A stretch of DNA of 64,000 nucleotides from Strobilurus pachycystidiatus (lineage: Eukaryota > Basidiomycota > Agaricomycetes > Agaricales > Physalacriaceae). A program made the translations under genes and the position numbers. The notes beneath the pieces were generated by a model. That model was not told where the DNA came from and searched no databases. It saw nothing but the letters and a program-made list of their open reading frames with translations. The stretch covers positions 1 to 64,000 of the forward strand of contig JAHLMK010000040.1 in the NCBI GenBank assembly GCA_019915135.1, in the 5' to 3' direction. Below, one piece after another: positions 7,656 to 64,000 of the stretch (the first letter of the stretch is position 1; each line of letters opens with the position of its first letter).

Positions 7656-7659
7656 CCGA

Positions 7660-8175
7660 CTTCAGTATCGAATCCGGAGCAACCGCCCGGCGTACTTCGA
7701 AAATGTCCCAACCACAAAGCTCTCTAAGACATAGACGCTTTCTTGTGCAAACGATAGCATCGCGCCAATGGCACTGGCGGCGCACAGGGCAACGGTGAGG
7801 GTGACCATGAGGAGACAAATGCATGTCGGCGTGAAATCGGGCAAGATTTGATTTTGCCAAGAGGACGTCAGTCATGAATTGGTTTCCTGGTTCAAGATGT
7901 GACACAAACACACCTTCTGCACATTCTCCAGGAGGCCTGTGGCAACGACATCTACGTCAGACGTGACTTCGCCAGACCGCGACCGGCTCAGCAGCGGGCG
8001 CCACGCTCGAGATGTGACGCAAACTGCCGCCGGTACGGCCTATCTGCAGCCCCGATTCCGCAGCAAGACTCAGTGCTCTGCTCACAGACTTACGCACTAG
8101 CTGGCGTTGTGCACCAGTAGCGGCGTATTTGCCTGACAGGTTCATGAGGCGGAGCTCGACGGCTATGAGTTTCAA
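7660..8175 (-). pseudogene. Possible hypothetical membrane-protein gene or relic
   Basis: On the minus strand an ATG at 8173-8175 opens a stretch (AVELRLMNLSGKYAATG) that runs to a possible donor GTGCGT near 8110. Further down, an open segment ends at TGA 7662-7664 and contains a convincing hydrophobic helix (CICLLMVTLTVALCAASAIG). The segments can be linked only through introns I cannot place with confidence, and one junction lacks a good acceptor. It may be a small single-span protein or its remains. I do not recognise the family. Confidence 0.3.
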
Positions 8176-43328: not shown

Positions 43329-43544
43329 GGGTCTTGGGAGTCTGAGGGAGAGCAAGTGCGAAAATTGATCGATCGGCCGCCCCTCGATAATCAATCATCG
43401 ATAAATACATCTCCAGGATCGCCGGACGCTATTTCTGCGTACCAAATCGGCGTTCATGGGCATTCAGAGCGCTGGAATGGCGATGTTGATAAAAAGACGA
43501 TATACTATAAGGTGTGCGCTCAAAATCGTGTAAATCGTCGTAGT
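39226..43544 (-). mobile_element. CACTA-like DNA transposon, one candidate end
   Basis: Beyond the transposase start, the sequence ends at a TAGTG (43540-43544), whose reverse complement CACTACGACGATTTACACG has the form of a CACTA terminus. GCG follows and would be the 3-bp target copy. A matching CACTAC end was not found on the other side between 38 and 39.2 kb, so the element may be truncated, or its left end lies farther away or has diverged. Confidence 0.4.
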
Positions 43545-43598: not shown

Positions 43599-45739
43599 TA
43601 GTCTCATTCCAACTTCCCGACCGACGTTCGGGGCTCACCGGGACTTTCGGACCGATGGAATTCGAATTTTTAGCGAGAGTGGCTCGATTCGTATGCTGGT
43701 GTTTTGTTATCTTGAATTGCTATCGTCGGAGCTCTAAATGCCGTGTCATCGGCTTGATTCACCACCCCGCTGCTGAGCTGTGAGCTGGCTGCCAGTGCCG
43801 CGGTAGTCCATTGTATATACTTGCAGACACACGCAAAGGTTGACATGCATATTTCCAGTAGTAAATGAGACACATCGCGAGACGCTACCCCCGAGCGGCT
43901 CGCTGCCTGATCCGAGTTCAAACTCCGCAGATAGCAACTTGTCAACTGCCGGAATGCTAAGTTCTTTTTCACGCTCACGTAGGCCTCTCCAAAAAGCTCT
44001 GGAAAATCAGGTAATACCTCAGATATGTATATCCAGCCTCTCTAAAATTTTCAGACCCAGACACCCACTCGGAGCCTCACAGTGCTTTGATTTTACGATC
44101 CCGACATCTGTGGCTGTGCCGTGCATGCCCCTGCCTTCATCGCGCCTCACCGAGATCCGACTGATCTCACAGTGAGGCACTCAGCACTTGCGCGAATGGT
44201 GCACGGGTGGTTTGCAAGGTGATTCTCTCTTTCTCCTCTCTCTCTCTTCTTTCTTTTCTTTTTCTTTTCTTTTCTTTTTATTTATTTTGGTTACGTCAGG
44301 CACCAGCATCATTACCGAGCCGAGAGTGGCTCGATTCGTATGCTGGTGTTTTGTTATCTTGAATTGCTATCGTCGGAGCTCTAAATGCCGTGTCATCGGC
44401 TTGATTCACCACCCCGCTGCTGAGCTGTGAGCTGGCTGCCAGTGCCGCGGTAGTCCATTGTATATACTTGCAGACACACGCAAAGGTTGACATGCATATT
44501 TCCAGTAGTAAATGAGACACATCGCGAGACGCTACCCCCGAGCGGCTCGCTGCCTGATCCGAGTTCAAACTCCGCAGATAGCAACTTGTCAACTGCCGGA
44601 ATGCTAAGTTCTTTTTCACGCTCACGTAGGCCTCTCCAAAAAGCTCTGGAAAATCAGGTAATACCTCAGATATGTATATCCAGCCTCTCTAAAATTTTCA
44701 GACCCAGACACCCACTCGGAGCCTCACAGTGCTTTGATTTTACGATCCCGACATCTGTGGCTGTGCCGTGCATGCCCCTGCCTTCATCGCGCCTCACCGA
44801 GATCCGACTGATCTCACAGTGAGGCACTCAGCACTTGCGCGAATGGTGCACGGGTGGTTTGCAAGGTGATTCTCTCTTTCTCCTCTCTCTCTCTTCTTTC
44901 TTTTCTTTTTCTTTTCTTTTCTTTTTATTTATTTTGGTTACGTCAGGCACCAGCATCATTACCGAGCCGAGAGTGGCTCGATTCGTATGCTGGTGTTTTG
45001 TTATCTTGAATTGCTATCGTCGGAGCTCTAAATGCCGTGTCATCGGCTTGATTCACCACCCCGCTGCTGAGCTGTGAGCTGGCTGCCAGTGCCGCGGTAG
45101 TCCATTGTATATACTTGCAGACACACGCAAAGGTTGACATGCATATTTCCAGTAGTAAATGAGACACATCGCGAGACGCTACCCCCGAGCGGCTCGCTGC
45201 CTGATCCGAGTTCAAACTCCGCAGATAGCAACTTGTCAACTGCCGGAATGCTAAGTTCTTTTTCACGCTCACGTAGGCCTCTCCAAAAAGCTCTGGAAAA
45301 TCAGGTAATACCTCAGATATGTATATCCAGCCTCTCTAAAATTTTCAGACCCAGACACCCACTCGGAGCCTCACAGTGCTTTGATTTTACGATCCCGACA
45401 TCTGTGGCTGTGCCGTGCATGCCCCTGCCTTCATCGCGCCTCACCGAGATCCGACTGATCTCACAGTGAGGCACTCAGCACTTGCGCGAATGGTGCACGG
45501 GTGGTTTGCAAGGTGATTCTCTCTTTCTCCTCTCTCTCTCTTCTTTCTTTTCTTTTTCTTTTCTTTTCTTTTTATTTATTTTGGTTACGTCAGGCACCAG
45601 CATCATTACCGAGCCGCGAGAGTTCGAGTTTTGGTGATATCTCGCGCCCAAAAATTCAACTCCAATCGGTCCGATATCCGAGTACCGAGCACCGAGCTCG
45701 AGGTGGGGAGATATCACCAAAACGTCGGGAACGAGACTA
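43599..45739. mobile_element. TIR-flanked non-autonomous element with three 647-bp tandem units
   Basis: The left end TAGTCTCATTCC and the right end (reverse complement TAGTCTCGTTCC) begin imperfect terminal inverted repeats. About 60-80 bp in, they share a second block: TCGGACCGAT then GAATTTTT then GCGAGA on both sides. The flanking 8 bp are ATAGTTTT and ATAGTCCT, a possible decayed 8-bp target copy (6 of 8 match), which would suit a hAT-type element. Between the ends are three tandem units and no transposase. Confidence 0.55.
43675..45615. repeat. Three tandem 647-bp units
   Basis: Units begin at 43675, 44322 and 44969 and appear identical over their shared length. Each ends with a polypyrimidine run (CTCTCTCTCTTCTTTCTTTT) and then TCAGGCACCAGCA. 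The same TCAGGCACCAGCA word also occurs just outside the left end, at 43561. Open frames in the units are repeated with them and have no motif. Confidence 0.9.
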
Positions 45740-46091
45740 ATAGTCCTTTTCAGTCGGACTCCTTAGTTCCTGGACCCGGTGCTGACATCGTGAGATTTGC
45801 TCATCTATTGTGTGCCTACGATGAGGCCCGAGGGTCCTACAGACCTGCCTTTCACTGCTACTAATACAGTAGGGGAGCCAACTGTCTATCACAGAACCCA
45901 CTATCGCAGGTGAGCGCGGCCGGCCGGATCAGTCTAGTGCGGCCAGCCAGGACACTTTAGGTCGGCAGAGCAGCTTCGACTTAGGTATATCAATATCCGC
46001 CCGGACCGTGACGGACCCCGCTAATCACGCGTCACGAGACGCCTTTGTTTCCCTGCAAACACTGACAGTACTCTCCCTACTAGCTTGAAAT
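45740..46091. other. Intergenic, about 350 bp
   Basis: Right flank of the TIR element and upstream region of the next gene; nothing further is recognised. Confidence 0.35.
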
Positions 46092-46975
46092 ATGCCACTC
46101 ATGGCCGCGCAAGATACTTTCATTCCGGGCAGCGAGTCCTTTGAAGTAAGCTACGATCTGCTTCTTGATGCTGCTTACGCTCGCTTGCCTTCTTTCCATC
46201 GGCCTTCGGCAAACGCGAACGCGACCTCTCAGCAGAGCCGGCCGACAACTGACCTGGAAAGGCAGGAAAGGTTGGCCTCCTTCTTGCAACCACAGCTGAA
46301 ATCTGATCATGGTCACTAGTATCAACGTCGTTCCAAGTATGGCTACCTCTGTAGTTGCTTCAACTAGCCGTTTCAGCCCCGCCCCAGCAAGACTGGCGAC
46401 GCCTGCTCCAGCGGCAAGGGGAGTTCAATCCTCCACATCTGTGCCATCAGGATACAATGGACTCGCAGCACTGGCTCGTCGAAGCATGTCTGTTGTCCGC
46501 GCCCCGTCTGAGCTCTTTTCACAAACGCCTAAGAGGGAAGAGAACAAAGAAGAGACCCGGGTTCTTAGGCATGTTCCCGACGCTGCTGCAGCTGGTTCTT
46601 CTCTAACAGTGTTGCAGCGCTGCCGGTTATAAATTCACGTTTATTCGGAATACTACTGATTACGTCCTTACGCTCGTCGCCCAAACTCCACCCAACCATG
46701 CCGCCCATCCGCCTGACTTGACAACGCCCCAAGGACGACCTCCCCTCATGATTTTTTTGCTTCTCAACGCACCCAACCCTGATGATACAAAGATATGGCA
46801 ATATCATGCAGGCGACGGGCTCCGCTGGGTCGAGGTAGCCAACGGCGACGCATACGACTCGAAATCTGGCTGGGAAAGCTCTATCAACGGCAACTACATA
46901 CTGAACCTCAAGCAGGGCGGTATCCAGTTGATCTCCAAGACTTATGCACTCAGAAATAACATCATTGCCCGATAG
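46092..46975 (+). CDS. Hypothetical protein, exons uncertain
   Basis: An ATG at 46092 opens 75 codons (MPLMAAQDTFIPGSESFEV and on) ending near a possible donor GTCACT at 46310. A middle part is open in two frames, one of them Ser/Ala/Pro-rich (SRFSPAPARLATPAPAARG). A last segment (46718-46975) reads DDTKIWQYHAGDGLRWVEV and later SGWESSINGNYIL before TAG. The last segment looks the most protein-like. I could not find one splice model linking all three parts, so this may be two genes or a decayed one. No family recognised. Confidence 0.3.
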
Positions 46976-47129
46976 ACTCAGTACGTTGCATGTGTATATA
47001 CAGTTTGGCGGGTTTGTCTAATGCTCCTGTGCAGCGGTCGCTCTCAACTTGATAATAATATAACTGGCGTAGAGAATTGTATTATTTGGATGCGACTCTG
47101 ATTTTGAGTGATATACATCAATCTGTACT

Positions 47130-47545
47130 CTTACTCAGCGACGGCGGCGGCCGCGGGCGCCCTTCTTGTGAACCCAACATGAAAATCGAGGTGGAGCAGC
47201 AGAATGCGGCGACGACGGGCGGCAGCCTGCGTTGGCCGCCTTCGCCCCCGCCTTCGCCCAACCTCCCTCTGCCCGCGTCGAGCTCCAAACGGACTCGCTT
47301 GCTGCTCCAAAAGGACAGGCGTGGGAGGACGGCTCTGGGCCGCGTTTAGTCGCTGCTTTCTCTTCCCTCTCAGCCTCTCTCTGCCCGCGTCGAGCTCCAA
47401 ACGGACTGGCTTGCTGCTCCAAAAGGACAGGCGCGGGCGAATGGATCCGGGTTGCGCTCAACCGCCGGATTTGGCAGCAAAGTGGCCGCTCGCCGGCGTT
47501 CTGCCAGGCTGCCAATCTATTGTTTACACACCTTCGCATCCGTAG
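47130..47545 (-). repeat. Dispersed GC-rich repeat, member B
   Basis: Two copies of the TCCGTTTGGAGC-type unit, in inverse orientation to those at 31759-32012, lie at 47278-47322 and 47388-47431. They are separated by about 65 bp of related GC-rich sequence. GGCGGC triplets precede them. Frames through it mirror the repeat and are not taken as genes. Confidence 0.6.
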
Positions 47546-49099
47546 TCGACTTCAATTTCGCTATCTAGAAATATAATTTTGTGCTTCTCGAAATGTGACT
47601 GCGTCTAGGCCGCAGCTTGGTAGTACCGGACTAGGCGTGGCGGCGGTGATTATTCGTAATGTTTCCCGCCACTCTCTATGTATCGGTTCAGTTGTCCTCA
47701 TATGAAAGGTAGTATCGTGTCGAATACTTAGCGCTTAGCGTCAAACTTGGACAATAATGCAATTTATTTCTCTCCCCAAATTTCAACCCATCCCGCGGCG
47801 ACGCAAAGCAAACGCTGCAATTCAATTCCTAGGCCAAGTCGCAGGCAGAGAAAACAGTAATAGCGGCTAAGTGCAGACCGCGAAAGCCTTCGAATTCGTA
47901 CGAGAAATGCGCATGTGAAAGATCCAAGCTTAATCAAGAAACTGGCGGGGACGCATGACAATGAGGGGGTGGCGTCCTTCGGGCTAGATCTGGGCCAAGA
48001 CGCGTTGAACTGTCCTATCTAGTCGTCTGGACCGTCAATTAGCTGCGGTACTGTGCCGAAAAGCATGGAAAGCAGTCGCGAGTACCTAAAACGTGCCAAG
48101 CAGAAAGAGAGACAGACGGACATGTCTCATTTAGGCGTGTTCTTCATTACCGAAAACTACCGTGACGATAGGCCATCAAGACGCCGATGATGCCTGCAAA
48201 AAAATCAACAGGTTCCCGCAAGCGTGTACAGAAATCTCAGAACGCGTTGCGTTGTGCGTCGAGGCAAACTGGAGAGTATCAACTACCTACCTACCTACCC
48301 AATTACCTACCTACCTACCCAATCCAGCGACAACTTTCCTTTTCCATCCTTACCTTTTCACGATCACAACCTCGGATCTGTCACCCCCGTCTGCCTCTGT
48401 ATCGAGCTCAACACTCCTTCAGCTAATTCACAGTCCGTCCTCGGACTTTGTTCGCGACAAAGCAGGGAACTAATCACGATCACGAACATCGGACGGCATC
48501 TGAATGCAAAGAACTTTAACCTAGCTGTCGCCGCCCTCAACGTTCCTTCTATTCATAGTTATAACTGTTATGACTCCGTCTGGCACACTTTCTCGTTATT
48601 GCAAATGATCCGACCGCATGTTTCCATTAACGTGATTTTTTTTACCTTCCAGTGTTCCACTGGTGACTGACCATGTAACAGTCCGAATCGGGTTTATTCA
48701 GCGCCTTGTCCTCGTTTCCCCCGCGGCAAAAGAAGATATATAATGGGCGCCATCCAAGCCTCTGGCCAAGCCACTCGACTCCTCTACGTTCCTCGTGTCA
48801 CAGCCATCTACATCGCGCCGCCACTTTGACCTGGTTAGCGTTGGCCGCCCCTCTTCTCACTATCACTGACGACAATACCAGCCCTAAAAGCATGGGCCAA
48901 ATGATCCATTTTGACGCGATTCTTTTCCCATCCGATGGTTCGTCGCTCACACCCCCGAGGGCGCTGAACTATGCTTGTTTTACAGCTATGTAACCCATAG
49001 GTCGACCGCCGTCGCTCGTACAGCTCATGACTAGGTTCGTTTCTCTCCGAGGCTAGCGGAGGCGGGTCGCGTATACTAATTGAATTCGATTCCAGTCCA
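47546..49099. other. 1.55 kb without a supportable gene
   Basis: A TACC simple repeat (TACCTACCTACCTACCCAAT, two copies) lies at about 48283-48323. A short frame at 48890-48993 (MGQMIHFDAILFPSDGS) could be a 5' exon of the gene at 49100, but no good junction was found. Confidence 0.35.
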
Positions 49100-49670
49100 A
49101 TGGCGATATCGACGCCCCACTCTTCGTACACTGCGTCCCCGTCGCGTATGCCTCATCCTGAAATTCATATGGATTATGTACGTCGTTCTTCGCGCGGCTA
49201 TCTTATCCTCGGCCGGCCTAAAACTCTGAATCTCGCATCTTCCATAGATCGCGGACAGCATTGGGCCACGCGCCTGGAAATATCAGGTAAATCTGCATGA
49301 GAACCAGCGGCGTCCTCTGGCACTGCTCACGCGTTTGCTCTCACAGCTCGTGGAAGCGCTTGACGGCATGAATCGAAAATTCACCAATCCCTACGTCGTT
49401 TTCTACCCTGTCGTGTCGCGCGATGGAATGCCGTTCCCCGTCAACAAGAGCATAAAGGAGATCCAAGGAAGATCCTTCAGAGACGACATCGCCTGGCGGG
49501 GGAACATCATCGTTGCCAAATACCGCGACAACCCCTTCTCATCGATGATGAACGCCTCCATGGCTGACTTTCCACTCCTGAAGAACTACCTTTTTACCCA
49601 CGGATCACCGTCGGAGGTCTGTCTACTTTGCTTGCTTTTTGACTCTTTCAACTTGACTTCTCGACAGTGA
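49100..49670 (+). CDS. Small conserved-looking protein, 129 residues
   Basis: Three exons, 49100-49177, 49248-49286 and 49347-49616, plus a terminal TGA at 49668-49670 after a 51-nt intron, join in phase 0 throughout. The protein has a Ser-rich start, then a compact region: VEALDGMNRKF, VVSRDGMPFPVNKSIKEIQG, RDDIAWRGNIIVAKYRD and ASMADFPLLKNYLF. This pattern resembles a family of short hypothetical proteins I have seen in Agaricomycetes, but I cannot name a function. Clean borders and phase support it. Placing the stop codon after a last intron is unusual; reading on past the donor GTCTGT gives a tail of about 18 residues ending at the same TGA. Confidence 0.6.
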
Positions 49671-50299
49671 ATACTGCTGGAGATCGCCGATCAGCCTCAC
49701 TGGCAGTCACGGCGCACATGTTCATTTATCCGCATCCCGCTTCATACCTTCTTATTTATTTGGACACTTGTATATAGTATATATATGTTGTATACCATCG
49801 GTACATGAGAAGTATCGTACGTGTCTTGTTTCTGTATATAAATTGGCTTGTACTTATCTTATCTTTTCCTGCTAACTTACTTCCCAATGGCTCTCAGACT
49901 ATGGGCCCCGTTCGTGCTTATTCTGCGTTTCTACAATCTGATGTGCGCCTGCCAGAGTGCAGGGAAGATGGTGCCAATTAGGTCCTGTGCCGAAATCGCT
50001 GTTGTACGTTCCCAGCAGAGGCGCCTCTTGAACCACCTTGGCCGAAGGCGCCGATCAAGGACGAGAGCAGCCCAAGAGACGTGGCAGACCGCAAACCGAG
50101 CGTGGAGCCTTTACTCTAGAACGTCTGTGAAATAGCGGCCTGCTAGTAGCATCACCTCAAACCTTGAACCATCGCCTTCAGGTTGAACCAGGAGCGTCTA
50201 TGATCTCCATCAAATTTCTTTCACTGCTGACACAAGGTGCTGAAAACCACAGACGAAGAACTAAACACGAACGTCAGCGATGATCACGAGACTTGAAAA
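49671..50299. other. 3' flank and junction to the retrotransposon
   Basis: AT-rich sequence with TATATAGTATATATATG near 49772-49788 may contain the 3' end of the preceding transcript. No gene is supported. The base composition changes to the CCTT/AAGG-rich style of the gypsy element between 50.2 and 50.4 kb. Confidence 0.35.
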
Positions 50300-51202
50300 G
50301 TGAGCCTTTGGCCCAAGCATCACCGAGCAGCGCTTGTCTCACTTCTTCGCGGTGATACGCAGGGTACTATTCCAGTACTAGAAACGGGGAATTTTGCGAT
50401 TCCTGAATAGCCCAAAGACCTTAGGAACCTCCAGTCAAGTACTTAGGATAGAGCACGCAGGAGTTACTGCCTTGACGCGGGCAAGCCTCCAGGACAAGGT
50501 CCAGGCGCCTTAACAAGTCCTTTAGGACAGGCGCGATCGAAACCTTCGATCACCTTCATCCGAATATCCTTATCCGCGCGTTGGATCCCTTTCAAGATCC
50601 CGTACCTTTGCGTGTACCTTGTACTACAGACGATGTGCTATAACCATTCGCACCCAAGGAGGGTCCAAGGTCTCCAGGCGGTTCAGTTCGAGCGACCCAA
50701 GACCTGCGCACCTCAACCCAAAGACCTGGAAGGTCCCGAAATAGTTCAAGGACGTCACAACCCTTTTGGGGAAACAATCTTCGGAGCTGTCAAGGACTCC
50801 GAACCAACGCCTTCCGCTATGCCGATCGATCATGATCCACGATCAAGGACCACCCCAAAAGCAGGGTGTATTACCACTTTAAGAAAGCACTCCCCTGTAG
50901 TGTCTGCGCTCGAAAGGACGTTCTTAACGATCTCCATCCAACCTATCCACAAGAAAGCAGGTATCCGTAGGACCTTGCATCGTAAAGATACCTAAGGATC
51001 GAAGTCCTTATCAGACCTCGATCTCCTGGGCCCAAGGATTATACCATACCGCCAAGGTGGCGTATATGGCTAAAGGACCAAGCGGCCTGTCCGCAGTTGT
51101 TTCGACCAGGGATAGCCAATAAGAATCCAGCACTTGTATGACTCAAAAGTCCGATGTATCCGATCCTAGAATAGATGCTTACTCAGTAGGAACCCACCAG
51201 TA

Positions 51203-51209
51203 GTATAAA
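51203..51209 (+). promoter_or_regulatory. Probable LTR promoter TATA box
   Basis: TATAAAAG in GTAGTATAAAAGGGCCC lies about 1.3 kb before the gag frame, where an LTR U3/R promoter is expected. Confidence 0.45.
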
Positions 51210-52492
51210 AGGGCCCAAAGGACCCATATTTCGGTAGCTTAGAGCCCCCTCCAGTAGCCGCTAGTCAGACGCAGCCATTGTAGTGAATCTATCTCGAGTT
51301 TCGACTCATTTCTGCAAAGAACCCAAAGACCCCAAAGACCCCAAGACCTTTCCAAGATTTAAAGACATCAGGTGTTGCCAAGCTCCTTGAAAGACTCAAA
51401 AGAACCTTATTCCGACGTACCAAGTCGAGTACCAACGAATCTACTTGGTGTTAGAACCTTGTATTCGCAAGAAGGCCGGTTTGCAAGTGGTTCTGCCCTG
51501 CATTCACGCTATTTCGTGAAGTACTTTCCTTTGAGGAATAAGTTGAGTTTGAACGAGTGTTGTCAACGTCTGAGACACCTTTCGGAACCTTTGGTCCCGG
51601 TGCAAGACACTAGAAGTTTGGTTTAAGTGCAAGAAGGAGTCCTTATCGTTAGCAGTCCAGTGGCGTAAAACCTGCGGTAGCGGCCTGACGATTCCAAGAC
51701 AAAGTCCTTGTACACCAGAGCACTTGATAGGTAGAAGCTACATTGCCTCGCGCTGTTTAAGGTCTTCATACGTCAAGAGGTTCGGCCTACGACTTCAAGG
51801 TTTTCTTGTGTCATTTTGATCAGAATCCCTACACCCCCAAAAACAACTCGTAGTTTAACTACAGCGATTCGGAATACATCTCTATTTCTCCATTACCCAA
51901 AAGCACCTTGTTCTCTCGAACCTTTGTGCACCCCATCTCCCTTACAAGGAGTGTTAGTTGTGATAAGGATTGATAGTGTGGTTAGACGATAGCTTCTTTT
52001 TCAGAGGTCTATTCCGAACTTGCACATCATATTTTGGAGCCCACCGCGAGGGGGTGTAAATTTTGATTTCGAAAGAGACTTCTAAGTCAACCTTGAGATC
52101 AGAATCTCCATAAACAAAAGACACTGGCTGCAAGGAACTCTGGTCGTTACACCAACAGCCAGAACCGCGCAAATCCACAACCCCCAAAAGGAGACCCAGT
52201 TATTGCCGGATCTTCAAATCCAGCAACCTCTGGTATCACTAGTCGCCTAAGAAGCAATCGCCCAATCGCCGGCTCACTTTACAACGGTTTACCTAGTGAA
52301 GTAGCTCAAGCACAGCGACGCTTTGCAGACCCGACTACTCCCAAGAACCAAAAGAAGAAACGTACGCAAGTACCACCTTCAACACCTACTGCCTCTAGGA
52401 TCAGATCTTCTTCAGATCCTGAATCACCTTCGAGAACTCCAACCAGTATCCGAAGACATTCGGACTCTAGAACTTCGCCTAGTCCCGCATTT

Positions 52493-53965
52493 GTGACACC
52501 TTTCGGAAGTCCTTTGACTGACCTTGAAGACCCCGAAAGTCCAGAACCTATTACCCCCTTCATTGACTTTAACCCGTCTACCCAAAACACGATACCAGTT
52601 CCAGTAATGGCAGTACGAGCAATTGTACCTTCCGAGGAACTTAGCGCTGAAGCTAGAGGCGAGATCCAAGGCAAGAAGATCCCGATACCATTCTCAAGGG
52701 ATGCCCCAAAGTTCAAGGGACACTCTGGAGACGATGTGAGGGAATTCTTCACGATGTGCAACTGGATCTTTGACCAGACAGGAATCACCGAACAAGGTAC
52801 TAAGTTGGAAGTAGCGGCGCTATACGCCGGCCACGAACAACGCCTAAGGTGGCACAAAAACCCAGACTACCTGAAAGGTGTCTGGGCGGACTTCCAAGAA
52901 TCAGTTCTTTCCTCATACTCAAAGGGAAAGAACGATCCTACGTACGTCCCGGCCGACCTAAAGGATGCCTTGGACCCGTACCTGGCTAGGCCCGTAGCCA
53001 ACAAGCAGAAATGGGAAAGCTTTCAGCGCGAAGTGCTCCATATCATGGGACATCTTATCACGTCGGGAGAACTTACCAATAAGGGTGCTATAGAAGATAT
53101 CAAGTCCTCTATCACAGAGGGAGTTTGGCATAATGTCCTTGGGGACCTCAGGCGCGATGCGAAAGCTAATGCAACAGCCGGGACAACCCCCACCTATGAC
53201 TTCACGTTGTCAGAGGTCGAGGCAGCGATCTCCAACTACTTCTTGACCGATAAATGGATGAGCAAGAGTGCGAAGGATAGTCCTTATAACAGAGAACTTA
53301 TTCCCGCCTCTACCACCCGAATCAAGACAGAGGAGTTGGATGAATACCTGAATAGGGTAGCTAGCCTTCAGGACATTATCCAGAAAGGAGAAAAGGAACG
53401 CGAAGAGGCTCGCAAGGCTGATCAGAAGATGATGGCAGAACTTCTCCATACCTTACAGCGTGGAGGTCCGCAAGGACTCCGCACCCAAGGTTTTGTACAA
53501 GAAGCCTCGCCGATTTATCTACAAACACCTGCTCAAGGTGTCTCAGTCCCGACCAACTTACCGAATGGACTCTACAAAGCTCCTCCGGGCGCGTTCCCAG
53601 GAAACAAGTTCGTAGTTAACGATGGAAGGTGCTACTTCTGTCGTGAGCTAGGACACATTGTAGCAAATTGTCCTACAAAGGAAATGTGCGAAAGCAATGG
53701 TCATATCTACAAGCCTGGCGGTACCAACATATATCATGTAACGAACGGAACTACTAGTCAACCTATTCAAAGGGTTAGTCCCAAGCAGCCTCTCAGCCCT
53801 TGGGAACAAGTTCAGAAGTTTCAACAAGAAAATGCACCTAAGGTATCGGCGTTCCAATCTCAAGAAGATGAGTTCGCACCTGAGGTCGCGATGTATGTTC
53901 AAACCCCAACCCAAGAAGAAGAGTTTGCCCCCGACGCCTATCAGGGTTTCGGCAGGGCTCGATGA
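52493..53965 (+). CDS. gag: gypsy gag polyprotein with CCHC zinc knuckle
   Basis: Gag is the retroelement's RNA-binding structural protein. The frame is open from about 52100 to TGA at 53963-53965, but the first ATG in frame is at 52607 (MAVRAIVPSEEL). The part before it, basic and Ser/Pro-rich, has no ATG, so the true start is unclear. The given start marks where a protein-like acidic stretch begins. A helical capsid-like region (KFKGHSGDDVREFFTMCNW and on) is followed by a zinc knuckle, CYFCRELGHIVANC (from 53629, spacing C-x2-C-x4-H-x4-C), which binds nucleic acid. The stop codon overlaps the ATG of the next frame (ATGA at 53962-53965). Confidence 0.8.
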   Translation: MTPFGSPLTDLEDPESPEPITPFIDFNPSTQNTIPVPVMAVRAIVPSEELSAEARGEIQGKKIPIPFSRDAPKFKGHSGDDVREFFTMCNWIFDQTGITEQGTKLEVAALYAGHEQRLRWHKNPDYLKGVWADFQESVLSSYSKGKNDPTYVPADLKDALDPYLARPVANKQKWESFQREVLHIMGHLITSGELTNKGAIEDIKSSITEGVWHNVLGDLRRDAKANATAGTTPTYDFTLSEVEAAISNYFLTDKWMSKSAKDSPYNRELIPASTTRIKTEELDEYLNRVASLQDIIQKGEKEREEARKADQKMMAELLHTLQRGGPQGLRTQGFVQEASPIYLQTPAQGVSVPTNLPNGLYKAPPGAFPGNKFVVNDGRCYFCRELGHIVANCPTKEMCESNGHIYKPGGTNIYHVTNGTTSQPIQRVSPKQPLSPWEQVQKFQQENAPKVSAFQSQEDEFAPEVAMYVQTPTQEEEFAPDAYQGFGRAR

Positions 53966-55130
53966 AGGAAGGAGTGCAGTTAGCACATACTCCTCCGGAG
54001 AGCCAGTTCACTGTAGAAACTCGTCAGACTCGTCAGAGCGCAAAAGCACCTAGTGCACCTGTGGATTCCACTCCACAAAACAAGGTAACCTCATGGCCTA
54101 AGGACCGGGTGTCCGTGGTCATTCCAAAAGCAGCGCCGCCTAAGGTATCATTCTCCAAGCCGGAAGTCACTCAAGAAGTAGAACCTGTTGACCAGGACCT
54201 TCTTGACGAAGTCCTGGCGATGGAAGAACCCGACCCGGTGCCGCAACCAAAAGCAGATTCAACTCTGCCAGAAAAGAACCAACCAAAGGTTCAACCTAAG
54301 GAACCTAAGGTCAAGAGTTTCCAACGTCGTAGCCTGGCAGAAGAACTCTTGCACAAGAATCCCAGTTGGCGTGAAGCCTGGAAGTTCTTGTTACCCGAAG
54401 CCCTACTAGCTACCAACCCCCCTTGGCAGCAGAGCATTTCGGACTTCATCAGGAAACGCAACACGCCTGTGGCTGTATTCAAGACGGAAGTAGTGGCCGA
54501 TACGGTCCAAGATCACTTCCAACCCGAGCTATATTCAGTCAACTTTCATGAGCAAGGTGATTTACCTATTGGTGGAATTATAGTCCACGATGCGGTAGAA
54601 CAGTTTGTAAACCTTTCCGGAGGTCACTATACTGGTCCCTTTCAAATGATAAGTGGCAATATGGCGCCGGAAAATGCCGATCTACGAACCTTTTGGCCCT
54701 TGATCAACAAGAATGGTAAAAAGGAGAGTTTAGTGGATGGTGGGTCGCAGATCGCCTCCATTTCGCTCAAGGCGGCATTGGAACTAGGAATAGCCTATGA
54801 TCCCACTTTCACCATTACTATGGAAAGTGCGGACAAGGGACGAACCAGTACCTTGGGATTGGCTCGTAACATACCTTTTGACTTTGAAGGAATTGTCTAT
54901 TACCTTCAGTTGCATGTGTTGCAGGATCCCGCCTATGAGGTCCTACTGGGACGACCTTTCGAGATCGTTTCAAACCTGGTCATCACCAACCTTCCCAACG
55001 GGAACGCAATCGGAACCCTTACGGATAACACCAATGGGAAGAAGTTATCGCTACCTTCTTACCGTCGAGGACAGATCCCAAGACATATGATTCCAGGGGG
55101 ACAAACGGGTTTTCACGGGAACCTAAGGAC
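53962..55130 (+). CDS. gypsy protease frame, overlapping gag
   Basis: This frame starts at the ATG inside ATGA at the gag stop and stays open to the hAT insertion. Its first half is Pro/Lys-rich linker. The retropepsin part starts near 54700: the active-site loop reads LVDGGSQIASIS (54730 on), a D-x-G-S form where many families have DTG or DSG. The flap and the family motif VLLGRPF (54940-54960) follow. It would process the element's polyprotein as a dimer. The reverse transcriptase is not visible. Bridging the insertion, the frame would meet TAG right after it (63865-63867), while another frame stays open from 63864 on, so pol probably needs a frameshift or its own start. Confidence 0.75.
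55123..55130 (+). repeat. Left target-site duplication of hAT copy 2
   Basis: CTAAGGAC here equals 63856-63863 exactly. It has T at position 2 and A at position 7, the usual hAT preference. Confidence 0.95.
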
Positions 55131-55547
55131 TAGGGTTTTGAAGTCGAGTTGCCACAACCGGTTGTAATCTACAACTCAACCCAACCTAAGTTGAGGTTTG
55201 TGTCAGGAAAGAAAAAAAAAACAACCACACAACCAGTTGAGGTTGCAGTTGCGCAAGATTACTAGCTTATTGACAACCCTTGAAAGACCGGCTCAACCGG
55301 TTGCAACTCTTCAAAGTTGGAATAAAATGGACCCACCAGGAATTGATCCCGGGAGTCCTAACCAGAAATTACGAGAATTTCAAGCACCTTAACCAGTGGG
55401 CCAAATGGTCACATTCGTTCCCCGTCTGACACGCCTACAGCCCCACACACATTGACACATGACATGTATATATGACAACACAGAGGAATCTCGGAATAAG
55501 ATAGAATCTATTTCCAACACTGGCAACCCCGCCCGTTTCCTCCCTCC
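55131..55547. repeat. Left terminal and subterminal region of hAT copy 2
   Basis: After the TAGGGTTTT end there are several AACCGGTTG-like and CAACTCAACC motifs up to about 55310, mirroring the right end. The remaining 230 bp lead to the transposase ATG and probably include its promoter (ATGTATATATGAC near 55463). Confidence 0.7.
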
Positions 55548-58500
55548 ATGGCCAAGACCAAGACTAAGCAAAAGCCTCAGGACGACAACACCCGTACCAC
55601 TCGTTCCAGTACAAAGGCAACTACCAAAAAGGCCCCGCCTCCACCCCGAAAATCTCGTAAAAAGAATGCGGAACCGTCGTCGTCTAAGTCCGGGTCATCA
55701 AACTTGTCAGCATGGGTCCAACCAAAGAAGAAGTCCAAGGCTACAGCAGAGAGCTCCGGCTCAGAGTCGGAAGACGACGAGACTCTACGACCGCGGAAGA
55801 AACAGAGGACAACCACGGAAGAGGTCGAAATTGATGACGAAGCCCCTGCAGTCCAAACGATCACGATAGACGACTCTGACGAGGAAGGACGGGTGAGTTT
55901 GCTTAAAATGCAATAGACCATTCACTCACCAAATACCAGGTATTCGAAGACCGCCATGATCACACTGTTGTAGCCAAAAAGGTGGTCAAGAAACGCCCCG
56001 ACGACCTTCTCACCATCTTCTCCGATATTACCGAAGTCGTCTTCAAAGATAAAACGGGCGCCGCCGAGAAATATAAAGGCCGTTGGTGTCTAATCTGCAA
56101 GTGAGTTCGTCGTATGCCGCTATAGTAGAGCAACACTCACATGCAATAGGGAGACAGCGGAGAAAGGGAAGGGTTCCGGTATTCGCAAAGCATTCCTACT
56201 CGGGAGTAGACATGACCACGAATAAGGAGTAAAGGAGAATATTCATGAATATATTCCTAATCTTATTCATGAATATGAATATGATGAATATATTATATTC
56301 ATGAATAAGAATAAGTTGACGAATATAGAATATGAACCTTCAAGTTCACATAATCCTCAACTCATTCATGAGTGTCTGACAATACTGAATTCTCAGTACT
56401 GAAGACAAGTTTATGATAAATTTAGATGCTGTTTGAATGATTTATAGTTCATTCAATAACTTTAACTGTGATTTTGAGTGACATTGAGATGATTATACTT
56501 GTATATTCGTGAATATTCATGAATAAAAGCGAAATATTCGCAGTGAAGATTAAGTTGACGAATAAGATTAAGAGTATATTCATGAATAACAATTATGACC
56601 CTTGGAGGGGGGATTATTCGTGTGCATGAATAAGAATATACTCGAATATATATTCGTGGACATCTCTACTCGGGAGCACCACAACATGCCGCGGCCACAT
56701 TGCGTCCGCTCACTACGCCGAATATCAGAAGCGTTGTAAGGCAAAAGGCATTGAGGAGGAGGATCGTGCCGTTCCGAAAGAGATCCTTGAACAGAGAAAG
56801 GCCGTTGTTGCTGCAAAGGATCCTAATGCCGGTACATTGCTTGCCATGGGATTCACAGACCGTGTAGGACCGACGGAGTTTTCGAGAGAGAGTATCTTGG
56901 AGCATGCGTCGAAATTTATCGTCTGTCACAATCAGGTGAGTGATCCCCGATGAACTGTGTATGCCACGTACCAATAAGTTGCAGTCCTTCGCCACCGCCG
57001 GTAACCTCTTCTACCGAAACTCTCTCTTCGCCATGCGTCCCAAGACCGTTGCATCCGAGCTGCCCTCGCCTCATCAAGTGACGACATATATCCACAACGA
57101 ATATGTGGACGCTGTTGAGGAGGATCGAAAGGATTTTGCAGTAAGCACACCATCCAATGCCAGCAGAACGGTACTTACAATAGTAATAGAAAGCACTCGG
57201 TGATGTGTGCAACACCGCAGATACGTGGTCGTCCGATGTTAACAAGGCACAATTCCTGGGAGGAACAAGTACGTGGGTGGTCGTCCGAAAGGTGAAAGGA
57301 AAGCGCATCTGGCGGCTCAAGACGCGGGTGATCGGGTTCAAGGCCCTCGAGGGAAAACATGACGGTGATAATCTTGGTCGTTATTTTGTCAGCATGTGTG
57401 TGCGAGTTGGAATCATCGATCTTGAGCGCAAGATCTCGAAGGTAAGAGGTCAACCGGTTTGTTTGTGCGCGTTGACTGATGCCTTGTGTGCGGCTTTAGC
57501 TAGGCCCATCAACGTTCGACAACGCATCCAACAACAGCACCCTCTCAGAATGTGTCGAGGATCTCCATCACCGCCTAGGCCTGCGCCCTTGGAACGCCAA
57601 CGAGAATCAACTGATGTAAGTCATTCTTTACTCTGGTACCACACCTATTGACAGTAATGTATGCTTAGGTGTATGGCACACGTCCTCAACCTAGCAGTCG
57701 GCGACTTTATGGCCGCTATCACACAGGTTGCCGTCGTGGAGACAACTCAAGCTATCTGGGATTACGATCCAAACGATCCGGACAACCATGTACTTGGTGG
57801 CACACTAGATGTCATTGCAATGCTTCGTACTTTGGCAGTCAAGGTACGTAGACTGTGCAGGATTGATGCGTCTTCTCATCAAACACACTCTGCAGCTCCA
57901 ATGTTCTGGCCAGCGTATTGACGAGTTCCAACGCCTGCAGCGTGAATGTGGCCACACATCGGTCCTTAGTCTGGTTATACACGGAAACACTCGGTGGGGC
58001 ACGGCTCACGGCATGATGGACCGCGGGTATACGTTGCGCAAGGTACGAGATCTCAGTCTCTCCTTTCACTACCTCTAACAACTGCTAGCCCGTGAATCGG
58101 TTCATTTCTGTTGCAGATGACACTTTCGGACCCATTACTACGTTGCGCAACAAGGGCCGGCTTGTTAAGCACATCCCTTGGACCGCCTTCCGAATCGACC
58201 ACGATGGCTGGCAGCGCATTCTTGACTGCCGCGACATTCTTGCCGTGTGTTCGGTCTGTGTGTCTGCGAACAGCACTGACGAAGTTTATAGGATGCTAAT
58301 GAGATACAACAAGTGTTTTCGTCTTCCGCGTACCCCACAATCTCCAGTGTCCTCCCAAAGATCGAGAACTTTATCTCTAAATGGGAGAAGAAGCGGACCA
58401 TGGTGCGGTACATTCTTTTCTGGCCCGCCATCGACGCCGGACTGGCCAAGATGCGAAAGTACTATCACAAATTTGACGGGAAGCCGGTTTACATCCTCGG

Positions 58501-59449
58501 AATGTGTACGTGCTCGCCTATACCATCGTGTTAACCTAACTTACATGGTCAGTCATTCACCCCTTCTATAAGCTTACCTGGATCGAGCACCACTGGGGTG
58601 GTGCAGCGGAGCAGCAAGCAGAAATTGCGGCCGGTAACAAGAAAGCCAAGAATTGGATTGCAGAGGCAGAGAGGATTGTTGACAAAGCCGTACGCCTCAC
58701 TGTTTCCCGTTTGTTCAATTATCCAGCTCATCCCACCACAGATGGAAGACGCCTGGCCGAAGCGTCTCCTCTTTGACGACGACGACGAGGACGACGAGAG
58801 CAACGACGAATCCTCCGGTGACTCAGAGGATGACTCCGACTCTGATGTCGATGTGACCGGCACAGCCCCTCCTCCTTCTCCATCTGCCGCAACCTCTGCA
58901 CCAAGCAATGACAACGACGCCGAAGACGACGACGATGACCCCGCGACTTCCTTCATCAAGCATCGAGCCAGCTTATTGAAAGCGTCAACAACCAGCTACT
59001 CGGGCTGGGAGGCTGAACTTCGTGCCTACAAGCGCGACATCCCCCGAAATGTAACACCGGACACCGACCTTTGCAAGTACTGGGAGGTACGTGCTTGTTG
59101 GATTGCCGTTTCTCGTCCCTAACGCGAACTTCAGAAACATTACCGAAAATATCCCACTGTTGCCAGAATTGCGCTTGACGTGATTCCCGTGCAAGCGTCG
59201 TCCGTTCCTTGTGAACGGTTATTCTCTGCCAGCAAGCCCGACGCTAATCAGCACCGTGCACGTATCGGGCCCCTACGCTTCGAGCAGGTTCAAGTCTTGA
59301 AGGCGCGGTGGAGGGAGGATGCAGTAGATTTCGCCAAAGTCAACCAGAAATTTGTGGAAGTGTATTCGATTGGGGAGTACGAGGCCCGGCTAGAAGAAGA
59401 CCAGGAAATGGCCATGCTAGATAAATTTATGGTACCCGCTGCGTTGTAG
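55548..59449 (+). pseudogene. hAT transposase, interrupted by a MITE
   Basis: The first exon (55548-55892) is a basic and acidic disordered lead with AKTKTKQK and DDSDEEGR. A BED zinc finger begins with WCLIC (about 56086) and resumes after the MITE with CRGHIASAH (about 56688). Then come hAT catalytic landmarks: DTWSSDVNKAQFLGG (57220), FDNASNN (57507), CMAHVLNLAV (57667) and NTRW (57986). The C-terminal dimerisation domain has CKYWEKHYRKYPTVAR across an intron and CERLFSASK (about 59207), which contains the catalytic Glu. About a dozen introns of 45-60 nt, all GT/AG, separate the exons. The stop is at 59447-59449. The MITE at 56207-56668 introduces TAA at 56223, so this copy cannot make the whole protein unless the insert is spliced out. 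Everything else looks intact, so the disruption is recent. Confidence 0.9.
56207..56668. mobile_element. 462-bp AT-rich hAT-like MITE inside the transposase gene
   Basis: The ends are inverted repeats, TAGACATGACCACGAATA against TAGAGATGTCCACGAATA (16 of 18 match). The 8-bp target copies CTCGGGAG lie at 56199-56206 and 56669-56676. The interior is very AT-rich and full of ATTCATGAATA-type palindromes, with no coding capacity. Size, ends and duplication length fit a hAT-type miniature element, moved by a transposase other than its host's, since the ends differ. Confidence 0.9.
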
Positions 59450-59858
59450 CTTCAATGCAATTCTATTCTATTTCATGCATGCAAAGGACCGTGTGGATTC
59501 TAAAGGTACACGAATGGTAGAAAGTAGATCTATATTCCGGTTGACATTAGCAGCACAAATGAACTGTGGACTTCACCACGTAATGTTTCTGTCCATCCTT
59601 TGTGATACGGGCTGCCCACAAAGCCGTCGTGTCGAGTCCTGAGCTCTATCCGACGGCGTACTAGCAATGTGGTGTGTATCAGTCGAGGGGTTGTGCAAGT
59701 CTAAGCTCGGCAAGTGGGTTAGTCCTAGGTGTGGAACTCACCATGTAGGCCGGTGACTGCTAGATCACCATTCGTCACAGCGATCACATCTTGCCTTGCA
59801 CCATCCGAGTCGACCTCACTTGCCCGTGCACACCCATACCCGACGACGCCCAAACCCC
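59450..59858. other. Spacer between transposase and coiled-coil gene
   Basis: About 400 bp hold the 3' end of the transposase gene and presumably the promoter of the next; no distinct signal is seen. Confidence 0.35.
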
Positions 59859-60531
59859 ATGGCGCGGACAAAGGACGCCGTAATCCTGCGTAAAGAAGGC
59901 TACACTCACGAGGAAGCCGCCCAATATGTCATGCGGTATTATGCGCCAAATCTACCCGTGGAGGAGCGACGGGCACTCGAGCAGGAGCGACAACGCAGAA
60001 AAGAAGCACAGGAGGAAATATTGGCGCGCGAAAGGGAGCAGATGCGGCAGAACGAGGAGGAACGTCTTGCAGAGGAACGCCGTGCAGAGGAACGCCGTGT
60101 CGAGGACAGATTGGAACGGCGTCGAGCAAGCTGGCGCCAGTCCAAGGCAAGGTGAGTGACCCTTCATCTTTCATTTCTGCTCTCATAGGAGTTCCAGGAG
60201 ACGCGCTTCCGTGCCGCAGGAAATTGAAGACTACGCCGCGCACCGAGCCGCACAGAATCGGTACGCCGCTGCCTACCGCGCTTCTCGCCGGGCAATGCTA
60301 CGATCCAAGAGCCAGCAGCTGCGCTATCAGTGCGTTCTATTTCGATTTTATTCTATAATCGACTTATCTCAATGATCCAGGGCGAATCCAAAACTCTTAC
60401 CGCGCAGCGGCTGCCTGCAACACGCTGAAGATTATGACGATTCAGCCTTGCGCGTCCGAGGTTGGAATAACGAGCTGAAGGCGCAGCGTCGTCAGCGCAT
60501 TCTAGCAGGCGAGGTCTCGGGAGAGGATTAG
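59859..60531 (+). CDS. Arg/Glu-rich coiled-coil cargo protein
   Basis: Three exons, 59859-60151, 60189-60329 and 60381-60531, with introns of 37 and 51 nt, encode 194 residues. The start ATG follows CCCC. The N-terminus (MARTKDAVILRKEGYTHEEA) could be a short helical module. It is followed by a long charged helix (ERRALEQERQRRKEAQEE onward) rich in Glu/Arg heptads, and then a basic Ala/Arg-rich tail. No zinc or catalytic motif is present. It is repeated unchanged, as far as visible, in copy 1. It lies between transposase and dioxygenase in the same orientation. A DNA-binding or partner role for either is a guess. Some TET-bearing fungal transposons of other classes carry HMG-box accessory proteins; I do not see an HMG box here. 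Confidence 0.65.
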
Positions 60532-61650
60532 ACCCAGTCAGATGTCATACTAGAACCTAACAAATACAAGATCCCAACAATACAACATTGCATTGCTTTA
60601 CCTCTTTAATGATATTTGAATGGAGCGGAGGCGACGACAAAAAGACGGGCAACATGCAAATATATATAGTCAAAGATGAGGCGGATTCCAGGTTTTTCGT
60701 CGAGGGCGCGGAACACTCAACAGAGCGAGCCACATACCCGCGACGAAGGGGGATGTGTAGAAGGAAAGGGGCCTGGGCGAGTATGGTATTGGGTGGAGGG
60801 TCCGTGCATCCGCCGCCGCCGCCGCCGTCGATGCGCCGTTATCTCTAGCAGTTGCCCTCGTCGTCGGTATCCCTCGCCAACAGTCAGACGGTGTCATCGT
60901 TCGTATCAGTCGTCCGTCGTCCTCGGGCTCTCGCGATTCCCTTCCTCGGCGGTGAAAGCGCGATCCAAATCTTCCAAATCGCGGATGGGTGGTCACAGTG
61001 TGGAGATTGGCGCCTGAATGGAGGTGGTCGGGGATGTTTGCTCGATGAGCGTGGGCCCGTGCTTGGTGGCTGTCGTATGTTCGAGGGACGGCCGTCGTCC
61101 AGGCAAAGGGAGCGCGGTAGAGGCAAGTGAAAATCTTACCTGCTTGACAGATGCCCGCGGGCGATCTGCCAAGCCCCACAACATCCTGCGCGCGCGGGAA
61201 ATCGCATCTGCAGCGCCATCCTGCCCGTCCTCCTCCTCAATGAGCGTGGAGGCCTCCATTCGAGGGCTTAAACGTGTGGCTGCGTCCTCGAGTGACGGCT
61301 CACGCCGGTAAAGTCGTCCCAACGTTCTCCACGCCAATTGCGCGACGTGGGGACGGCGTGTGCGTTCAAGTCAAGTCCATCCGGGATCGATAGAAGAGAG
61401 CCCAAAGAGGGCGCGGGTCAGAGCGTGCGGGTGGATGGCGACTCGTCGACGCGCAGGCGTGGCGGTATGAGGGAGAGGTGATGAGATCGACTCCCCGGAT
61501 GATCGGACCGTTGAGTCCGCGCTGGTCCGGTAACGGTAACGGTACGCGCACGTGCGGCGTGTTTGTCTTGTTGTTATTTGGCAAGTGTTTGTATATCAGC
61601 CTTGTCTCTTGACCTCCACCAACCACCAGACTTGTCTCTCGATTTGTGCC
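60532..61650. other. Spacer upstream of the dioxygenase gene, copy 2
   Basis: This matches 360-1473 of copy 1. A possible minus-strand coding stretch here is not conserved in frame between the copies: a 5-bp insertion near 61373 and a one-base C-run change near 61154. I therefore treat the region mainly as regulatory. No TATA box is obvious ahead of 61651. Confidence 0.35.
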
Positions 61651-63520
61651 ATGGTGAGTGCAATCTTTTCTTTTTCTACCTTCCTTTCGTCGGTCTTTCT
61701 TCGAGCATGGATGGGTGGGGTCTGTCGACTCCACCACGGGACGCGCCCACTCATCCATGCCCGTCGGGGACCTTTGTTAGCTACAGTTGTCTAGAATTTC
61801 TCTTTGTGCCCCCCATACTCATGCACGGGGTAGATGTCTCGCACGACGCGCTCCGGCGCATCGTTCAGCCCCTTCGCGATGGGCGACGCTCTTGTCTTCG
61901 ACGTCGACGCGGAAGATCTCCTTAAACGTCGCTTCGCCGAGCTCGACGCGTCAGGAGACGCAGATGTAGAGGAGCGGGAAGAGGAACTCGAGACTGATGA
62001 AGAGGAGTCCCCAGAAGAAATTAAGGTGTGTTGCATTCCCTTTTCTTGGGCTGTGGGCTGAAAGGTCTCCATTACCTAGAGACCTCATGCGTCGGCGGCG
62101 GCCACCACTGCGGGACTAACGATTGCCGCGCGACGTGCGCGGCCTCCTCCCTCACCCCTCAACGTTTCTGCCCTTCCACCAACATTGCCACAGTGTCACT
62201 CCTTGTCACCCCTTACGCCGCTATCGCCTTCTCCCACGTCCCCATGTCAGCCATCTACGCGAGGGGACGGCCCCGGCTCCGCAGATCAACTCCTTCGTGG
62301 CAAGGCTGCGCGTCAAGCCGCCGCCCATCGTCGCCGCCGCACCAAGAAACAACGCATTCGGGAAGCCGGCGGGGATTCTTTCGTCAAGGAGAGCACCGCC
62401 CGGCACGTCGCCGACGCCATGGAGAACATCCAGGAGTTTGACCTGGATGCAGAGGATCTGGCTGTCAACTCCTCCGGCTTTGGGGGGCTGCGGCGCTCGT
62501 TCGCCAAGGATAGGCGCGATGCGGACGCGCTTTGCGCCCAACCTGGCTGGCGGCATCTGCGCTACAATGAAGGGGACCCCAGCGTTCCTCTCGTTGATCG
62601 CAAGCGGCGGCTGCTGGCCTGCGTCGGTGGTCTTCCCCAGGACGTTGTGGCTTGGAAGGCTGAAGTCGTCGAGCCTTTGGCGGACGCTATAGCGTCAGGA
62701 TCACGCGGCGTCCGCTTCTCCAAGAAGGAGCGGTATCACAAGCGGGGCCCTTTCCCTGCCACGGCGATTGGCATCTCTCATGGAGGCGGGGAGACAGTGA
62801 GTGTTTATCTTTATTGTCTTACTTGCCATGCTCAAAACAGCTTCTAGCGCCCGGGTAATCGACGTCTCTCAGCCAGTGCAAAACGGTTTATGGAAGGTCT
62901 ACTGCTTAATCCCGCGATGCAGCGCGCATCTGGCTTCATGAATAGTAAGTAACTCTACCCTCCCGTTGACGTGCTAATGCTCACTTGCTGTTGGCTCTAG
63001 GTCTCTTTCAGGCCTACAATCCCCCAATGTACCGTGTCTACGCCGAACATCAATCGATTCTCCTCGCCTCCAATGCGCGACTGCGGCGCAATTTTCAGAA
63101 TAGCGTCTTTTCGTGCCTCACCGTCAATAGTGGCCCACAAAGCACAACCAACCCCCACGCCGACGCTGCCAACAAGCCGGACGGGTGGTGTGGTATCCTT
63201 TGTGCCGGTCCCTTTGATTACAAGCGTGGCGGGCAGCTGGTCCTCTGGGACCTCAAACTTGTGATTGATTTCCCCCAGGTTGTGTCATCTTCATCCCCTC
63301 CGCACTACTTGTTCACTCCAACTGCCCTATACAACCTGGAGAACGCCGCTACTCGATCACTCAATACACTGCGGGCGGTTTATTCCGATGGGTGGCGAAT
63401 GACTTTAAGACGCAGGAGGCTTTTCTTCGTGATGCCACGGAGGAGCGGCTCACTCAGTGGTGGCACGATCGCGAGACGCGCTGGCAGCGCGGTCTCGAAC
63501 TGTTTCCTGTACTTCCGTAG
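61651..63520 (+). pseudogene. TET/JBP-family 2OG-Fe(II) dioxygenase, copy 2, one frameshift
   Basis: Exon borders are clear: ATG 61651-61653 followed at once by a 180-nt intron (GTGAGT...GGGTAG) to ATG 61834. Then come 61834-62025, 62251-62796, 62848-62944 and 63001-63520. The full length would be about 450 residues. The N-terminus is acidic (DADVEEREEELETDEEE), the middle has a basic patch (AHRRRRTKKQR), and the last exon holds the catalytic beta-helix with the HxD (NPHADAANKPDG). Unlike copy 1, the second exon is intact here (GLPQDVVAWKAEV). However, a C run before the distal iron His has five C instead of six (63272-63276), which shifts the frame and removes the His and the 2OG-binding Arg. 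A lesion in a homopolymer may be a sequence error. As read, neither copy in the window is fully open. Confidence 0.85.
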
Positions 63521-63855
63521 GTGTCCTTTCAAACGTTCTTCCTATATCATTTTGTATGTCTTGTGAACGTATCTACCTCTTGTAAGTTGTATATAGTGTA
63601 TTGTACACGTGTAATGAACCTGAAGATGTGTGAGTGCTCAGCCAACAACCGGTCTCAACTCAGTTGAGACCGGTTGCAACTCTCGGGGGTCTCAACCGGT
63701 TTCAACCCCCGGTTGTACTGAAAGAAAAATTGTCAACCGCACAACCGGTTGTGGTTGCCAGTTGCAAGAAATTGTGGTATTTAGACAACCGGTTGGGTTG
63801 GGGTTTTTGCCCCACAGGGGCAAAAAACCCAACCCGACTCGACTTTAAAACCCTA
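63521..63855. repeat. Right subterminal and terminal region of hAT copy 2
   Basis: This is the same as 3343-3676: CCGGTTG cluster, perfect 15-bp-arm inverted repeat at 63646-63676, G/C-run hairpin, and end CCCTA at 63851-63855. Confidence 0.85.
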
Positions 63856-63863
63856 CTAAGGAC
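63856..63863 (+). repeat. Right target-site duplication of hAT copy 2
   Basis: CTAAGGAC, identical to 55123-55130. Confidence 0.95.
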
Positions 63864-64000
63864 GTAGGAAACTCCTATGAAGAAGCTGTGTTGATCCTTG
63901 AAAGGTCACCAGAAGGAAACATCGAAGTAAAGCAAAGTTGGATACCTGGTGATAACAGGGAGACCTTCGGGGAAGGGGACTTAACGTCCTTATACATGAA
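63864..64000 (+). mobile_element. gypsy retrotransposon, continuation after the hAT insertion
   Basis: One plus-strand frame is open through the window end (SYEEAVLILERSPEGNIEV, FGEGDLTSLYM). It is in a different frame from the protease upstream. The reverse transcriptase would lie beyond 64000. Confidence 0.7.

Follow-up and report, generated by a model that had tools for sequence, protein, structure and literature searches.

A TET/JBP-type dioxygenase as a probable standing second gene of a hAT transposon family in the agaric Strobilurus pachycystidiatus

Whether a DNA-oxidising enzyme encoded within a transposon is a lasting component of that element or passing cargo is the question raised by a locus of Strobilurus pachycystidiatus (assembly GCA_019915135.1). 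TET/JBP genes are said to reside on KDZ transposons of Agaricomycetes. The stretch analyzed here, called the window, comprises positions 1-64,000 of contig JAHLMK010000040.1 (C40) and holds an element described in an original prediction as a hAT transposon with a TET/JBP DNA dioxygenase as cargo. In this work we have followed both genes through the genome and conclude that the element probably belongs to an autonomous-type hAT family whose standing second gene encodes a TET/JBP-type Fe(II)/2-oxoglutarate dioxygenase; this enzyme may oxidise 5-methylcytosine (5mC) against silencing.

The terminal inverted repeats (TIRs) of the window element agree in 17 of 18 bases and the flanking target duplications CTAAGGAC in 8 of 8 (Table 1). 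The flank is a long terminal repeat (LTR) retrotransposon with many copies. A search with the left flank gave 40 listed matches (of 82 candidates), 30 of which were extracted; one was the window copy itself, and in all 29 other copies read the pre-insertion site was intact with one CTAAGGAC. This fixes the borders of the window element exactly, with both genes between them, and bears out the TIRs and the perfect 8-bp duplication of the original prediction. A separate insertion of the dioxygenase into an existing element is not what the locus looks like: the ends, the duplications and the empty site frame the two genes together, and no border of the dioxygenase's own was noticed, although no dedicated search for one was made.

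Both genes are damaged in the window copy, a correction to the original prediction, and an intact copy lies on C6. There, according to our own exon model, the transposase gene is open and encodes 944 amino acids in 13 exons separated by GT-AG introns of 46-58 bp. The protein matches Dimer_Tnp_hAT (PF05699; E 2.9e-11, 43.4 bits against a cut-off of 21.4), as expected of the hAT transposase predicted within these borders. This is its sole Pfam match up to E 5, with none to a BED zinc finger, and the protein does not qualify as a KDZ-type transposase. The motifs DTWSS, TFDNASNN, NTRW and CERLF and a Cys/His cluster, picked by eye, are candidates for the hAT D-D-E catalytic triad and BED zinc finger. 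Two transposase relatives from other species fell below the preset 1e-20. The C6 dioxygenase gene is likewise open (508 amino acids in 4 exons, own exon model) and retains HxD, the second His and the Arg, so that the dioxygenase with HxD predicted inside the same borders is confirmed. The window copy carries a frameshift in the last dioxygenase exon relative to C6, and one of its transposase exons is broken by a 470-bp repeat; a 446-bp query from it matched at least 40 further copies along 435-446 bp (the best 40 of 92 candidates).

A partial copy at the start of the window had been cited as a sign that enzyme and element move together. That part stands: the copy is independent of the one at 55131, from which it differs by 1 mismatch and 11 gap columns in 3685, and it has another duplication (GTTGCCCT), so the mobility inference stands on two insertions. 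It is, however, the C6 insertion (C6:1184023-1192273) cut by the contig start. Window positions 3677-9000 are 100% identical to C6, as are 45600-50353, and since the flank is shared, a third insertion was rejected. C40 would thus appear to be an allele of C6 or a duplicate contig. Between the complete C6 copy and the window copy there are three indels and 0 substitutions. At the matching place of C6 the retrotransposon is missing, and its target duplication shows as a 5-bp overlap. Across the LTR stretch that was compared there are 0 mismatches in 1349 columns and one gap, which makes the retrotransposon young; because its LTRs are so alike, the hAT copy inside it would be young too, if it entered after the retrotransposon. 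Two further copies on C1 are 100% identical as far as the right end (2228 bp compared), after which their flanks differ. An assembly artefact or a chance adjacency of two separate elements might be suspected, as C40 overlaps C6 and the first C40 copy has small indels; two insertions with different duplications, five more bordered elements and 29 empty sites lead us to count this explanation as already refuted. We have hardly any doubt about the structure and the co-mobility of transposase and dioxygenase.

Is the association a single event or a property of the family? Ten regions with a close dioxygenase relative were read (the window, C6, C6b, C10, C5, C4, C1, C5c, C26 and C2). Seven have both ends, a perfect 8-bp duplication (7/7) and the transposase upstream of the dioxygenase on one strand, and they represent at least four diverged lineages. 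Their short TIRs are related. Nested insertions are inferred in the unread middles of C5 and C4, which are 26.6 and 29.8 kb long. The three other regions did not show both ends: none was found in C26, C5c has one end within the stretch taken, and the two TIR pairs seen in C2 are small and have imperfect duplications. A genome-wide scan for the dioxygenase domain listed 78 matches, of which 64 entered the linkage count; a hAT domain was located upstream for two only of the 14 omitted (second pieces and the weakest matches), and both of these belong to loci already counted. An upstream hAT domain on the same strand and within 30 kb is present for 11 of the 18 matches of at least 64% identity (one of them a duplicate, C40:2824 being C6) versus 0 of the 46 of at most 48% (range 26-48%), a split set after the gap had been seen in the 64 matches, with second pieces of close loci reaching down to 57%. 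For nine of the 11 linked matches the distance is within 5.5 kb; among the 46 distant matches, one lies within 30 kb of a hAT domain on the opposite strand. Starting from the transposase, a dioxygenase is found downstream at 10 of 11 loci of the clade, at C9 by way of a matched 42-amino-acid piece; a 42%-identical fragment on C19 was left out of this count.

The histories of the two genes agree as well, in line with the co-descent proposed for checking in the original prediction. Transposase and dioxygenase distances among seven elements are correlated (Mantel r 0.84, a value reached in 12 of 5040 permutations), and their trees are concordant except within the trio C1, C5c and C6b. The residue counts and the domain tree leave out sequences in which too few residues could be aligned. 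In the midpoint-rooted tree of the dioxygenase domain the linked copies, among them C26, marked as hAT-linked though its own transposase was not found, fall into one 18-tip clade with support 98, which also holds three Mucidula mucida and three further proteins. On these comparisons the two genes have very probably descended as a unit.

The assignment of the enzyme to the TET/JBP class depends on fold and active site. For the fold predicted for the relative P0001, every one of the top 26 Foldseek rows and the top 16 VIA-align rows is CcTet, TET2, NgTet or CMD1, and an ordinary prolyl hydroxylase was rejected by this ranking. CcTet of Coprinopsis cinerea (7vpn, 7w5p, 8jkk) acts on 5mC and 6-methyladenine (6mA) via Gly331/Asp337. 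It was also reached by sequence from another relative, P0002, at E 0.18; a PDB search with alignment A1 gave eight weak matches (best E 0.11) and no dioxygenase. The H and D of HxD are present in 105 of 105 aligned sequences, the second H in 73 of 75 and the 2-oxoglutarate Arg in 72 of 75. At the two specificity positions, placed via the CcTet match of P0002, Asn occurs in 105 of 105 and Cys in 103 of 105, and the invariant Asn sits where TET2 has its 5mC-contacting Asn. An AG-type TET was rejected, there being no PDB match by sequence and Asn/Cys in place of Gly/Ser331 and Asp337; a PE-type TET, defined by HxE, was rejected by the invariant HxD. As far as sequence can tell, the lineage is of neither type. 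Within the dioxygenase domain, identity to Mucidula mucida proteins is 67-82%, and the named relatives are Agaricomycetes by class. No rust-named match was present among the 49 and 78 relatives listed (7992 candidates scored each), a comparison that lay outside the PU-type sequences.

Could the enzyme instead serve the host, or act on protein or RNA, and be carried as a host benefit? The wider fold also occurs in FTO, AlkB-type enzymes and prolyl hydroxylases, and the 46 distant family members without an upstream hAT domain would suit such a role; the nearest solved folds are by a wide margin those of DNA-acting TETs, and the hAT-linked copies form one well supported clade, which leaves this explanation highly improbable.

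Several observations weigh against a family with a TET/JBP-type second gene and have to be set beside the evidence for it. The Pfam Tet_JBP match has E 7.6e-7 but reaches 28.9 bits, under the cut-off of 34.9, and 0 of the 27 whole-genome Tet_JBP matches listed exceed the curated cut-off. The 508-amino-acid protein finds no PDB chain by sequence (E up to 1), its identity to CcTet in the structural alignment is 17-18%, and the fold is that of P0001, which is 48% identical, and not of the element's own enzyme. As to linkage, 7 of the 18 close matches have no hAT domain upstream, C5 is linked at 21.8 kb, C26 only through a hAT domain 25 kb off that is not of this clade, and the C38 transposase locus has no dioxygenase among the matches listed. 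Several copies are broken, including the window copy in both genes; the C6b dioxygenase matches in its C-terminal part only and has three stops, and C9:1238573 has two stops and an altered Arg. The hAT element is not depleted in CpG (observed/expected 1.06), which fits an unmethylated state or mere youth. Lastly, C10:705832-715340 and C5:567104-593678 form a mosaic, with transposase halves 98.7% and dioxygenase halves 90% identical and the stretch between them 76% alike, which suggests an exchange of halves by recombination.

The mosaic shows the dioxygenase half to be exchangeable, and Kojima 2025 (PMC12730594) argues for passive transfer of TET genes between transposons. Both would suit a passenger, a host or other-transposon gene caught by chance and of no benefit to its carrier. 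Such a gene would hardly be expected to look like this one: the dioxygenase is under purifying selection, one gene order holds across the seven bordered elements, the distances of the two genes agree, and HxD, second His and Arg are jointly retained in 27 of 28 aligned genomic copies. A passenger is accordingly unlikely; rather than one fresh cargo, the enzyme is an established gene in a hAT lineage that has diverged.

What would a hAT element gain from it? The transposase would perform the cut-and-paste of the element and of its miniature inverted-repeat transposable elements (MITEs) via TAGGGTTTT ends; the host would lay 5mC on element copies, and the dioxygenase would oxidise it, so that promoter and ends remained usable. 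Anti-silencing through 5mC oxidation is the likeliest selected function, and we lean towards it. The enzyme might otherwise act on DNA for transposition itself, at ends, target sites or a base other than 5mC, and so aid excision, targeting or repair. The pocket differs from that of CcTet at both specificity positions, and enzymes of the class do more than demethylate (CMD1 and JBP; Kojima 2025, PMC12730594); the invariant Asn is shared with 5mC-preferring hTet2, and MITEs with the same kind of ends and no room for the gene are widespread, though the enzyme might act on them in trans. We consider this role rather doubtful.

These MITEs also bear on the original prediction, for which TIR pairs without the dioxygenase would have been unfavourable. 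Such pairs occur, but all five that were read with both ends proved to be MITEs of 470-708 bp, and 10 of the 11 transposase loci do have the dioxygenase. For the MITE of about 700 bp, at least 52 matches to the right end are listed, a few of them ends of large elements, with 0 in a reversed control, and ten pairs of related ends lie about 470 bp apart. Of eight single ends followed up, five could be completed to a pair with a perfect 8-bp duplication (four MITEs of 699-708 bp and one of 470 bp). MITEs of this length have room for neither gene, and the element proteins could act on them in trans. Near-identical copies beside an insertion-free allele, together with the gene-less MITEs, provide a natural test of silencing protection, in cis versus in trans.

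Table 1 Coordinates of the hAT-TET element and associated features in the window
Feature	Position	Strand	Basis or remark
Whole hAT-TET element	55131..63855	+	8725 bp
Left target-site duplication CTAAGGAC	55123..55130	.	single copy at empty sites
Left terminal inverted repeat	55131..55148	+	
hAT transposase gene, 13 exons, interrupted in window copy	55548..59449	+	exon model; PF05699
470-bp AT-rich MITE-like repeat inside transposase exon	56196..56665	.	missing from C6 copy
Open reading frame 2 (ORF2), 191 amino acids, basic, Glu/Arg-rich, 3 exons	59859..60531	+	relatives in C26, C2 regions
TET/JBP-type dioxygenase gene, 4 exons, last exon frameshifted in window copy	61834..63520	+	exon model, Pfam, fold of relative
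Right terminal inverted repeat	63838..63855	-	
Right target-site duplication CTAAGGAC	63856..63863	.	
Right part of C6 hAT-TET insertion (part of ORF2, dioxygenase, right end), truncated by contig start	1..3676	+	
Retrotransposon holding hAT insertion	50354..64000, on to about C40:70399	+	missing at matching C6 locus

ORF2, between the two main genes, has no Pfam match. In its place the C1, C5c and C6b elements contain a different conserved basic low-complexity ORF (365-410 amino acids), the C1 version of which has CENP-B_dimeris as its best Pfam match (E 0.014, under cut-off). The retrotransposon around the window element is presumably Gypsy-type; its Pfam matches are limited to a weak zinc knuckle and protease. 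The observed/expected CpG ratio is 1.06 in the hAT element, 0.79 in the adjoining retrotransposon (50354-55130) and 1.03 in window positions 3677-50350. Beside the right end of the C6/C40 copy lie seven copies of 178-bp satellite-like repeats (3680-5047). Elsewhere in the window, a Plavaka/tnp2-type transposase ORF occupies 40826-42442 on the minus strand (PF02992, E 5.7e-17; PF18759, E 1.7e-10), accompanied within 40826-43394 (minus strand) by a second ORF with no clear match, and a 647-bp unit is tandemly repeated at 43674-45267 (three 300-nt blocks at 647-bp spacing, 100% identical). Other Tet_JBP-like genes of the genome, with the metal site HTDSHD or HCDDND, are located at C38:96059, C10:584586, C39:63255 and C22:417987.

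The combination of hAT and TET has a published precedent, contrary to the original prediction, which knew of no described hAT host. In the excerpts of Kojima 2025 (PMC12730594) to which the following comparison is limited, TET-carrying hAT7 elements with 7-bp duplications and a PU-type TET are reported from Puccinia rusts, with several such families per genus. Like the present family, they combine a hAT transposase and a TET/JBP dioxygenase inside hAT ends. The duplication, hallmark of hAT7, is 7 bp long there versus 8 bp in 7 of 7 elements here; the hosts are Pucciniales with PU-type TETs, whereas the present dioxygenase has Agaricomycete named relatives; and in the three hAT7 families with gene order stated the TET gene lies upstream of the transposase, here downstream. 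An agaric hAT with TET and 8-bp duplications was not found in the literature, covered mostly at abstract level. What is new is an agaric 8-bp-duplication hAT whose dioxygenase falls outside the AG and PE definitions as those excerpts give them; the hAT-TET idea itself is not.

The same source describes AG-type TETs in Kyakuja and Zisupton (KDZ) elements of Agaricomycetes, which resemble the present family as Agaricomycete DNA transposons bearing a TET/JBP gene but have another class of transposase and a CcTet-like enzyme with Gly/Ser and Asp in place of Asn and Cys. CcTet itself is 17-18% identical to the present dioxygenase and has Gly331/Asp337 at these positions. PE-type TETs, with their HxE hallmark, occur in Plavaka, EnSpm, Zisupton, IS3EU and Helitron elements; they too are a distant TET lineage on transposons, some in Agaricales, and differ in HxE versus HxD in 105 of 105 sequences here. 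Borders, empty sites and matched gene histories within one genome indicate that a DNA-oxidising enzyme can be a lasting hAT component and not passing cargo. Tentatively, the present enzymes may constitute a fourth transposon-borne TET lineage of Agaricomycetes, with a TET2-like Asn pocket and 5mC-specific, long fixed in an 8-bp-duplication hAT, captured independently of rust hAT7 and acting in trans to keep element and MITEs unsilenced. To rust hAT7, agaric KDZ, Plavaka, EnSpm and Helitron elements, as listed in the excerpts of Kojima 2025 (PMC12730594), the present family adds an agaric hAT lineage whose active site is built differently.

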